From contig JADQAV010000002.1 of NCBI GenBank assembly GCA_019775845.1, positions 2,232,001 to 2,296,000 on the forward strand: a DNA stretch of 64,000 bases, read 5' to 3'. The stretch is from Myrmaecium sp. VS I D KN 1. Taxonomy: Eukaryota > Ascomycota > Dothideomycetes > Valsariales > Valsariaceae. The position numbers and the translations under genes are program-made. Shown here one piece after another: positions 42,561 through 57,770 of this stretch (positions within the stretch are counted from its first letter, which is position 1; every line of letters begins with the position of its first letter). Below the pieces are notes generated by a model, which was given only the letters and a program-made list of their open reading frames with translations, made no database searches and was not told where the DNA came from.

Positions 42561-45500
42561 ATGAATTCCGGTGAGTTCAAATCGCTCTTTTGACTTTTTT
42601 TTTTAACTTGGTCCCTTTTTTTTCGTTTCCCTCCTTCTCTTCGTGTCTGGGGGGGGGGGGGGGGGGGGGGGGGGGNNCCCCCCCCCCCCCCCCCCCCCCA
42701 CCCCCGTTTTTGCTGGGTTTTGGTTGGATCTCAGGTCAGGTCGGGTCGGGATTGCAGGCTGTTCGGTTGGTCTGACTGTCGGTGCTGCCCTGCTCTGCCG
42801 CTTCGCTGCATGGCCTTTACCCGCCTTTCCCCTGCTCTGCTCTGCTTCTGCTCTGCTCTGCTTGGGGGTTTTCTCTGGGGGCCGGCGGGGACAGGCTCAC
42901 CAGTCAGAAACTTCCCTCGCCATCATCCTCCGCACCCGACCCGACCGAGCTGGCCTGCCTGCCTGCCTGCCTAAGGTAGCTGCCTACCTACAGTACCTGC
43001 CTTACTCGATCCTGCTGCCTCACTCACTCAGCCTGGGCATCGTCTTCTCCTTCTCCTTTCCCCATCCTCTTACCCCCCACTCGTCCGGCGCATTCGAGCC
43101 CGCCAAGCTCTCCTACCTTACCTGAGCTCCCCTCGTCTCCCGCTTTCCCGTCCGATCCCTTCAGTCCCTTCCCTTCGTCCACTCACTCCCCCACACCCCC
43201 CTGGGCTGGACGTACAATCGATCCGGCGACGGTCTGCTCACCACCTCACACCCTCACACGTCGTCAGGTCCTGGTGCTGGGCGAGGCAGGCAAGGCAAGG
43301 CAAGGCAGGCAAGCTATATGTACCCCGTCATCAGCCCGCCGCTTGCCGGTCGTCGCCGCGTCCGCTCGTCGCTCGTTGGCTGTTCGACAGGGTGGAGGTC
43401 GCTCGTTGGTCGGCGGCGGGTGGAGCCCGTGGTAGAACGAACGGTGGTTTTGTTCATGTAGTGCGCTCCCGCACAGCTGCCGCTACCGCTGCCACTGCTT
43501 CCATCATCATCATCACCACCACCACCATGAGCACCACTGCTGCTGCTGCTTGCTGCTGCTCTCCTGCTGCTGCTCATGCTGCCGCTGCTGCTGCTGCTGC
43601 CGCTGCCGCCTGCTCGACCATCACCCCCACCATCACCACCACTCACCCGACCTCGGCGAGCCTCTGTGCGACATGGCTCTGAGGGGGGCTCATGGCGCTC
43701 TCGGACCCTGCACGCCGTCCTCTTGCGCGCTCGGCCAGGCAGTCTGCATTGCACGTTGTTCGTTTTCGTCCCACCGTCGTTGGTCGCACGGTGTGCACGC
43801 ACGCTCGTCGACGGTCTGATTGGCTAACAGCTGTTCGAACTGGCAGTCATCCACTCCCTCCCGCTCGACTCTGGCTACTCGCTCCCTTCGGAGCAGGAGT
43901 GCATCGAGCATATTGGCTCCAATGCACACCACGGCTCCTACGCTGCTGCTGGCGGGGGCGACCCCCTCAGCCGTAACGGAGTTTTGAGCCAGTCAGCCAG
44001 CACCCTGCCCGTCCCCCTGGGCCATGCCCCCCGTTACATCCCGCTACGATCCACCGGCCAGGACAATCAGTACGTACAATCCCCCCTTCCCCCTTCTCTC
44101 CGCTCCTCCCATTGGACCTGAGCCCCCCTCTTCTCCTCTCCTTCTACCCTCCACACGCACACCCACCCCCACCCCCCAGCATCAGGCATTCTGCACATCC
44201 GCAGCCTGTTGCCTTGCACTGCGCCCCCGCAGCCCATCTCCCGCCCCTCCGACAACGCTTGTCTAGCCCTGCGGCTCGACCGTCACCTCTCTCTTCCTCC
44301 CTCTCTCTCTCTCTCTTTCCTCGCTGCTTTTCTCGGGCGCGACCGCTGGACTTTGCAGACGGGATCAATCGTCATGATGCCAACCTGCAATCTCGTCGCA
44401 CACATCCCGTCCGTCTGGCGCACCTATCTCTCCCAACCGCGTGGTCTGCCACCGTGATCACACGACGACGGTCGTCCTGTGCGAAAATCCCCCTACCTAG
44501 TCCTTCCACACCACACACTCACACACTCACACACACCCCCCCTCCCCTCCCCTCCCCTCCAGTGACGATCCTAGAGCGTGCCACCGTCCTATCGGGTTAC
44601 ACGCACACACACCAACCCGCATCTGCATCCTTTGGGAGGCTTGTTGGACCTGTCTGCCCTTTCCTGCTGCCAGAACCTTCCGCTAACCATGCTGCTTCCG
44701 TCTATAGCTATCAAACCAGCGGTGGCATATCCGATTCCAATTCGGGCTCCATCTCCACCAGTCCGAGCTCGAACGCCTCATCCTTAGCCTTCCAGCCATT
44801 CTCGGCCACAAACGTGTTTCAACAGTCGGGAGGCCGGTCCTTCGGTCTGTCGAGTGCATATCCCCAAGCCTCTGGGTTATTTGCGTCCACCGTCGGTTCG
44901 GTTGGCTATTCGCACGGCTTCGGCACCCTGTCAAATCCTTCCGTCAGGCCCAGGCTCTCGTCCATGTATGTATCCTTCCTGCTCCACACCAACCGCCGCC
45001 TCCCGTCGGCCTGAACTGCGAGATCTATGAGTGACAGCTGACGGAACCCCCTACCAGGACGGATCCCTCACACTCGGGCATGTTACCTCCCGCACGATCA
45101 CCCGGTGCAGGCAATCCAGTGTCACCATCGTCCCTCGGTACGACGGCACGAGAAAATTATACCACATCGACGCCCGGCCTTAACAGGCACCCATTATCCC
45201 CACGCAGCCACACGGACTCCCTGAGCCGATTACCATATAGCTCGCTTCCGGATACGCCTCGTAGTGTCTTGCCCACCAACATGGCCACCTTGACGCAATC
45301 CTCAGGCGTCTCGTACGGAGGCGCTAGTACGATGTTGAACTATTCGCATCAGCATGACCGCTCTTCGCTGGATACACCCCCCTTCAGCGCCCAGGAGAAC
45401 TTCTGCGAGATCACCAGCGAGGCCCATGGTGTTATTACACCAAACATCGAAGCGAAGATCGAGAAGGGATTCTTTGAGTCAGATCACACGTGGACGTGCT

Positions 45501-57096: not shown

Positions 57097-57104
57097 CAAT
57101 CAAC

Positions 57105-57605
57105 GGATGAGCCTATGGAACACTCTGCCTGGCGCTGGGGAGCACCCCAGTAACTCACCGTCCTCCCCATTTTAGAAGGCATACCTGCACGAGCAGGTAA
57201 CTTCACCCCCTCCACGCAGGCCCTCACTAACGCCTGCACTCACGCCCTCACTCACGCCCTCACTGACGCCCTCACTCACGCAGGCCCTCACTCACGCAGG
57301 CCCTTACTCATGCAGGCCCTTACTCACGCAGGCCCTCACTCACGCAAACCCGGTCTGCGAGGGGTTTACAAGGGGCCTATAAGGGGGGTTGCCGAGGGCG
57401 CTCTGAGGGCTCTGAGGGCTTGCGAGGAAGCCTACGAGGGGCCTGCGAGGGGGCCTGCGAGGGGTCTGGGAGAGGGTTAACGTGAGTGATTATTTTGGAG
57501 GAGAGACCAACATGTGCCTCCCGGGGCCTTGGCTGCCTGTTGAGGGAGAGTTTTCTCCACTGGGGTGCTCCCTAGCCGCAGGTAGGGTGGTCCATAGGCT
57601 CATCC
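57105..57605. mobile_element. 501-bp non-autonomous inverted-repeat DNA element (MITE)
   Basis: The ends are inverted repeats of 47 bp, matching at 41 of 47 positions: both start GGATGAGCCTATGGA and run to GGGAGCACCCCAGT (left 57105-57151, right 57559-57605). They are flanked by the 8-bp direct repeat CAATCAAC at 57097-57104 and 57606-57613, a target-site duplication; it can be read as 9 bp (CCAATCAAC) if the last C of the right end is counted. The interior has no transposase frame. It contains two opposed tandem arrays: ACTCACGCAGGCCCT-type units at about 57235-57348, and GAGGGGCCTGC-type units at about 57355-57470, which are roughly complementary. An 8-bp duplication fits hAT elements and a 9-bp one fits Mutator-like elements; the termini do not settle it. 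Four of the six end mismatches are transitions. Confidence 0.85.
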
Positions 57606-57617
57606 CAATCAACAACC

Positions 57618-57623
57618 AAAAAA
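57618..57623 (-). terminator. RNA polymerase III terminator of tRNA-Ile
   Basis: A run of six T on the minus strand, 31 nt past the mature tRNA 3' end. The MITE target duplication begins 5 nt beyond it. Confidence 0.6.
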
Positions 57624-57653: not shown

Positions 57654-57770
57654 TGGTCAATACGAGGGTCGAACTCGCGACCTTGGCGTTAACATATGAG
57701 AAGGGCTTGAATTTCTTCAAGGTCTTCGTTCATATTAGCACCACGCTCTAACCAACTGAGCTAATCGACC
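57654..57770 (-). tRNA. tRNA-Ile (anticodon AAU) with a 43-nt intron
   Basis: Read 5' to 3' on the minus strand, the acceptor stem GGTCGAT (57770-57764) pairs with ATTGACC (57661-57655), followed by discriminator A. The D arm carries TAGCTCAGTTGGTTAGAGC. The anticodon stem TGGTG/CGCCA encloses CTAATAA with anticodon AAT. The T arm is GCGAGTTCGACCCTCGT. A 43-nt intron (about 57732-57690) interrupts the loop one base 3' of the anticodon, the standard nuclear position. The mature length is 74 nt. In the mature tRNA A34 would be edited to inosine. Confidence 0.93.

Follow-up and report, generated by a model that had tools for sequence, protein, structure and literature searches.

A foldback-like MITE beside a tRNA gene in Myrmaecium sp. 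and its RIP-degraded long relatives with MULE transposase remnants

The element in the window and the neighbouring tRNA gene

The window analysed here, a stretch of 64,000 nucleotides from the genome of Myrmaecium sp. VS I D KN 1, contains an element of 501 bp (57105-57605) with inverted ends of 47 bp, which are identical at 41/47 positions. It is flanked perfectly on both sides by the 8-bp sequence CAATCAAC (57097-57104 and 57606-57613), and a tRNA gene lies beyond its right end. The following features were distinguished at this locus:

57097-57104, no strand: left target site duplication (TSD) CAATCAAC, 8 bp, read directly; 8-bp duplications occur at 12/13 family members
57105-57605, plus strand: very probable non-autonomous MULE-type MITE, 501 bp, subfamily A
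57105-57151, plus strand: left terminal inverted repeat (TIR), 47 bp, complementary at 41/47 positions to 57559-57605; related ends occur on two long MULE copies
57203-57346, plus strand: C-rich left array, unit CACGCAGGCCCTCACT (16) or TCACGCCCTCAC (12)
57416-57472, plus strand: G-rich right array, which opposes the left one; unit GGGCCTGCGAGG (about 12)
57559-57605, minus strand: right TIR, 47 bp
57606-57613, no strand: right TSD CAATCAAC, 8 bp
57618-57623, minus strand: T6 run lying 4 nt from the duplication, probably the terminator used by Pol III for the tRNA gene
57654-57770, minus strand: tRNA gene with an intron, best read as Ile(AAU), a neighbour outside the element (Rfam RF00005, 48.1 bits)

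The extent of the element, its inverted ends and the duplication on both sides, which had been described in an earlier note on this DNA, were confirmed from the sequence, as was the construction of its interior from two opposed tandem arrays, with periods of 12 and 16 in the C-rich array (57203-57346) and of approximately 12 in the G-rich array (57416-57472). Among ORFs of at least 200 amino acids, none overlaps 57105-57605. Using DNA parameters, the window element folds at -134 kcal/mol, compared to a mean of -92.3 for shuffled sequences (z -8.05), with 0/100 shuffles folding as well, and the RNA parameters give a z value of -8.72, likewise with 0/100 shuffles equalling it. The capacity to form one long hairpin, as previously proposed, is thus upheld, and the window element combines arms containing internal tandem repeats with a single long hairpin, as in foldback elements. 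Its description as intact-looking holds for the ends, but not for the remainder of the element.

ARAGORN, with introns allowed, labelled the neighbouring gene (57654-57770) as Asn(GTT) with an intron of 43 nt, while the same program run without introns (bacterial mode) found no tRNA genes and missed this one. The usual position of a tRNA intron is 37/38, and when the intron is set there the sequence yields a 74-nt tRNA with the anticodon AAT. Ile(AAU) with a 43-nt intron, the identity originally given to this gene, is therefore the better reading, and the wrong-looking anticodon reported by ARAGORN arises because two placements of the 43-nt intron are possible. The element adjoins the T6 run, as had been stated for the Pol III terminator, but at a distance of 4 nt rather than 5.

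A family of short and long elements with common ends

A DNA search of the 25.66-Mb host genome with the window element returned 38 matches, among them relatives of close to full length on three further contigs, and the element is thus not the sole copy in the genome. The end pattern GGAYRARCCTAWRGARYACY, derived from ends already seen, occurs in the host genome at 26 sites with at most one mismatch, all of which fall into 13 inward-facing pairs. When up to three mismatches are allowed, the sites (85+63) do not outnumber those of the reversed control (68+92). A further pattern, GGATGAGCCTATGGA, was rejected, with 54+34 matches at two mismatches against 26+21 for its reversed-pattern control, matches beyond one mismatch being mostly due to chance. 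The 13 elements comprise eleven short copies of 259-619 bp (C5, C8, C9, C10, which is the window element, C11, C12, C18, C19, C54, C56 and C64) and two long copies (C25, 4,759 bp; C66, 13,763 bp).

Perfect 8-bp duplications flank nine of the 13 elements, and a further three (C9, C54 and C66) match at 7/8 positions, each differing by one transition, while C19 shows no target duplication at its pair of ends. By comparison, 22 of 28,750 off-register flank pairs reach 7/8 in a control covering 12 of the 13 loci, with C66 left out. The expectation of a multi-copy family bounded by 8-bp duplications was thus borne out (12/13 elements, three of these at 7/8), and the short copies, eleven in number, with TIRs throughout and TSDs in 10/11, have the attributes of a MITE family. 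On the basis of sequence identity, C5, C8, C10, C54 and C56 form subfamily A (80-94 %) and C9, C11, C12 and C18 form subfamily B (80-90 %), with C64 standing alone and C19 aberrant. The tips of the family read GGAYGA or GGATAA, with C or T as the fourth base. Matches dominated by the arrays (the fragments C10:2604309-2604705, C39, C8:1005680, C16 and C64:56260) were excluded as members, and two degraded pieces (C54:4405-4692 and C34:102594-103185) were not counted.

Tandem arrays were identified with TRF in nine of the eleven short copies and in neither C19 nor C56. Folding of the whole element is better than that of shuffled sequences in all eleven (z -4.0 to -14.4; 20 shuffles each, RNA parameters, one strand), and that of the interior alone in eight (z -2.7 or lower), with the interiors of C19, C54 and C56 scoring no better than their shuffles under the same settings. 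Array length varies from copy to copy and, because of this, the longest ungapped alignments within subfamilies extend over only 64-308 bp (16 pairs), with 155 bp or less in 14/16.

MULE remnants in the long copies and competing assignments

The two long copies share their ends with the MITEs. C25 (C25:54442-59200; 4,759 bp) is flanked on both sides by a perfect AACGGGTG duplication and its ends are closest to those of the MITE C64, while C66 (C66:1676863-1690625; 13,763 bp) is flanked by GCTATCCG and GCTGTCCG, which match at 7/8, and has TAAGGA-type tips like those of subfamily B. The right end of C66 is closest to C12 (90 % over 60 bp) and its left end resembles subfamilies A and B to about the same degree (83-84 %); the window element matches C66 in 43/49 columns at the right end and 38/47 at the left. 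No long copy of subfamily A, to which the window element belongs, was found in the host genome. The inverted ends show 84 % identity over ~93 bp in C66 and 76 % over 93 bp in C25, so that long TIRs, a MULE attribute, are present both here and, at 47 bp (41/47), in the window element.

When the six frames of the long copies were read with X at stops and searched against Pfam, MULE (PF10551) was the only match at E values up to 1 in C25 (E 3.8e-5, 24.5 bits, residues 400-481) and the only match in C66 outside a nested insert (E 0.0034, 18.2 bits, residues 373-451 of P0001). Both scores are under the Pfam curated cut-off of 27.6 bits. The domain starts about 1.2 kb (C25) and 1.1 kb (C66) inside the left end, and seven stops interrupt the match in each copy. 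A profile built from the five Pfam-scored MULE loci of the same genome matched C25 at E 5.2e-16 and C66 at E 1.2e-12, with no match among 1,200 control frames, for which the first 3,000 nt of each copy were shuffled (200 shuffled sequences), and these results support the presence of a MULE domain in autonomous-type relatives with the same ends, despite the individual scores below the Pfam cut-off. In addition, one of these loci, in C23, is collinear with C66 at the DNA level (68.6 % over 312 nt, E ~1e-27), two weaker segments falling on this diagonal as well, although off-diagonal matches down to E 2.4e-5 arise from the AT-rich background in this comparison. The termini had earlier been taken to differ from Mutator ends, an argument which does not stand, as both long members with the same ends carry MULE transposase remnants. 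An 8-bp duplication at 12/13 members (nine perfect, three at 7/8) also falls within the MULE range of 8-11 bp (PMC6446971).

The suggestion that the ends could be matched to an autonomous transposase held in so far as longer relatives with MULE remnants were found, but none of these is intact. Genome-wide, at least five PF10551 loci were detected, a lower bound which did not include C25 or C66; all five listed have internal stops, as do C25 and C66, and an intact transposase was found neither in the family nor among these loci. The five further remnants, each above the Pfam cut-off (C13:519352, C23:42689, C34:216988, C10:2612416 and C66:526721), all contain stops and include the pairs C13/C34 and C10/C66, so that other MULE lineages, too, were erased by RIP in this genome. 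When the long copies were compared with the whole genome, the short copies were covered, among the matches listed, only over the terminal 65 bp or less. The arrays are therefore not a recognisable remnant of a transposase gene, in line with the earlier note, although RIP could hide some likeness.

Other insertions are present within both long copies. A nested high-copy repeat of approximately 230 bp occupies C25:56068-56301 (element positions ~1627-1860); it occurs in at least 31 other places at 69-89 % identity and is absent from C66. The extra length of C66 is accounted for by a 9,839-bp insert (C66:1679748-1689586), without which 3,916 bp of MULE are left. This insert has inverted ends of about 19 bp and is flanked by GCTAAAAC and GCTAAGAC (8-bp duplication, 7/8), while C25 is uninterrupted at the aligned place, where GCTAAGAC is found once. 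The nested element is multi-copy and RIP-saturated, with related stretches at C29:77576-88484, C11:802125-805834, C64:252716-254900 and other sites. The C66 remnant gives a Pfam Histone match (E 0.0023, below cut-off) and matches PDB H3 chains at 8e-10, and a histone H3-like remnant was found in 4/4 copies tested, below cut-off in C66 and C11 (E 0.003) and above it in C29 (4.3e-11) and C64 (3.4e-10). For Pseudocercospora fijiensis, RIPped hAT elements of 9.5-9.9 kb with 20-bp TIRs, 8-bp TSDs and captured H3 are described, with H3 capture also in five other species (PMC6710886). In terms of architecture only, the nested element resembles such hAT elements with captured histone H3 (PMC6710886, PMC3538342) in size, ends, TSD, H3-like remnants and RIP saturation, and it most likely represents this published kind of hAT-H3 transduplication. 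Unlike the hAT-H3 elements described from the Mycosphaerellaceae (PMC6710886), no hAT domain was detected in it.

Several other assignments were weighed against a MULE origin of the short copies. It is very unlikely that they were moved by a hAT transposase, since each of the two long copies sharing these ends contains a MULE remnant and no hAT domain was detected in any of the six frames of C25 or C66, an observation weakened by heavy RIP. The duplication is nevertheless 8 bp rather than 9, 8 bp being also a hallmark of hAT elements, and the genome does contain a large hAT-like element, inserted into C66. The inverted ends of hAT elements are usually shorter than the 47 to about 90 bp observed here. 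The hAT profile PF05699 had no matches genome-wide, but was silent in the control genomes too and so excludes little, and this result is likewise weakened by heavy RIP.

Alternatively, the long copies could be unrelated, RIP-degraded MULE debris caught between MITE ends, with the MULE link being accidental. Insertions into members do occur, as seen from the second element nested in C66 and the ~230-bp repeat in C25, but this reading is highly improbable, since the two long copies are independent, lie on different contigs, and have their own duplications and different end subtypes. Moreover, the C25 and C66 interiors are collinear (73-82 % in five pieces, two of which overlap), with the MULE domain at approximately the same distance from the left end.

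The position of the CAATCAAC duplication, 4 nt from the T6 run of the tRNA gene, could also suggest an element which targets tRNA genes, the site beside the Pol III terminator having been chosen. This is barely plausible, as insertion beside a tRNA gene is not repeated in the family and the duplications share no common motif when judged by eye. With introns allowed, ARAGORN detected a tRNA gene in the flanks of none of the other 12 members, the flanks scanned being at least 1.1 kb on each side for eight of these and only 42-500 bp for C9, C18, C19 and C25. With only the window copy adjoining a detected tRNA gene (1/13), the proposal of the tRNA flank as a safe harbour is likewise not supported for this family. 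Merlin and KDZ (Zisupton) elements make duplications of 8 or 8-9 bp, and Merlin ends begin with GG, as do those of this family, but a Merlin or KDZ assignment is scarcely credible with a MULE domain present instead and no matches to PF12762 (found in one control genome) or PF18758 (found in no control).

RIP of the long copies, mobility and comparison with known systems

The window element very probably belongs to a fungal Mutator-like (MULE) family, as a foldback-like, non-autonomous MITE moved by the MULE transposase of longer relatives which have themselves been wrecked by RIP. A MULE transposase from such relatives would recognise the common ends of about 45-60 bp, and the element would be excised and reinserted in a cut-and-paste manner with an 8-bp stagger, giving rise to the CAATCAAC duplication. 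The arrays may grow and shrink by slippage or repair, and the opposed minisatellites would make the element a foldback-like hairpin. RIP has destroyed the long copies, and the surviving short ones may have escaped it by being short and broken up by array indels. The family has probably ceased to move, since its long members are RIP-wrecked and none of the transposase copies detected is intact.

The long copies are RIP-saturated, whereas the short copies keep the RIP target dinucleotides. The ratio (CpA+TpG)/(ApC+GpT) is 0.03 in C25, and 0.03 and 0.10 in the left and right parts, respectively, of the C66 MULE, whereas the pooled MITEs have a ratio of 1.26 and the window element one of 1.16, and the GC content is about 25 % in both long copies and 55-67 % in the short ones. 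The TpA/ApT ratio does not separate the two groups (long copies 1.77-1.89, with C25 at 1.77; short copies, pooled, 1.91; window element 0.62), and the composite RIP index is positive in 8/11 short copies. TA-bearing units of the arrays, set in AT-poor sequence, may explain both the raised TpA/ApT and the composite index in the short copies, and light RIP of these copies may also have contributed. The right end of C64 and the left end of C25 are identical in 53 of 63 columns, with one gap and no transversions, and seven changes run from C/G in the MITE to T/A in the MULE against two in the opposite direction. Between the C12 end and the right end of C66, 54 of 60 columns are identical, with two transitions each way and two transversions, so that the C66 right end was little touched by RIP.

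RIP is described as typically acting on sequences of more than 400 bp that are at least 80 % identical (PMC4522978), and the short copies of this family (259-619 bp) sit around that length limit. The closest short pair, C5 and C54 (95.3 % over 494 aligned bases), is above the usual length and identity limits and is not RIP-saturated; 20 of its 23 differences are transitions, nine of which are in RIP context. It is conceivable, though rather unlikely, that the opposed arrays keep the family alive under saturating RIP. Their fast length changes would leave ungapped homologous stretches no longer than 308 bp, shorter than the RIP limit, and the Mutator lineage would survive solely in the form of GC-rich hairpin MITEs, all copies with a transposase having been erased; a small-RNA pathway might in addition be fed by the hairpin. 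As the long members of this family have been mutated to 25 % GC while the short ones in the same genome are at 55-67 % GC, the family provides a natural comparison, from which the limits set to RIP by length and homology could be measured in a species other than the usual models.

By description, the long copies resemble VdMULE1 and the Hop-clade ascomycete MULEs (PMC3441728, PMC6446971) in their PF10551 MULE domain and 8-bp TSD. VdMULE1 is described as 3,613 bp long with a TIR of 86 bp, a TSD of 8 bp and PF10551 (PMC3441728), compared to 3,916 bp for C66 without its nest and 4,759 bp for C25 with its ~230-bp repeat, the ends of which are alike over ~93 bp. Hop1 and the VdMULEs are described with GGNAA as terminal consensus (PMC3441728), from which the ends here deviate in the fourth base, C or T instead of A. 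Further differences from VdMULE1 and Hop, as described, are the destruction of both long copies by RIP and the many short, array-filled derivatives.

Among short elements, there is a likeness by description to Tm1, a Mutator/Foldback family of root-knot nematodes with MITE-like members whose opposed arms consist of variable tandem repeats, one relative that encodes a transposase, a TSD of 8-10 bp in most members and no clear target consensus (PMC3169594). In Tm1, however, the arrays are the TIRs themselves, with units of 13-15 bp, a usual TSD of 9 bp and asymmetric 7-bp tips (PMC3169594), whereas here unique 47-bp TIRs come first, followed by arrays with units of about 12-16 bp. In Mycosphaerella graminicola, ten of 13 MITE families are reported to lack the CpA bias seen in 70 repeat families, and one MITE family has a TSD of 8-9 bp (PMC4522978), but those ten have an average match length of less than 200 bp, compared to the 259-619 bp of the copies in this study. 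Fungal MULEs with 8-bp duplications, nematode Mutator/foldback MITEs and fungal MITEs without RIP bias are thus already known, and the family of the window element is new, but of a known kind. Among the matches listed in a search of the openly licensed literature, which is weak evidence of absence, no RIP-surviving MULE foldback MITE family was found in a fungus. The family ties an otherwise anonymous fungal MITE to a transposase type despite RIP, and such ties may well be missed by annotation pipelines.

Elsewhere in the window, 27 consecutive G residues occur at 42649-42675, an unusual run which may represent an assembly or replication trouble spot.
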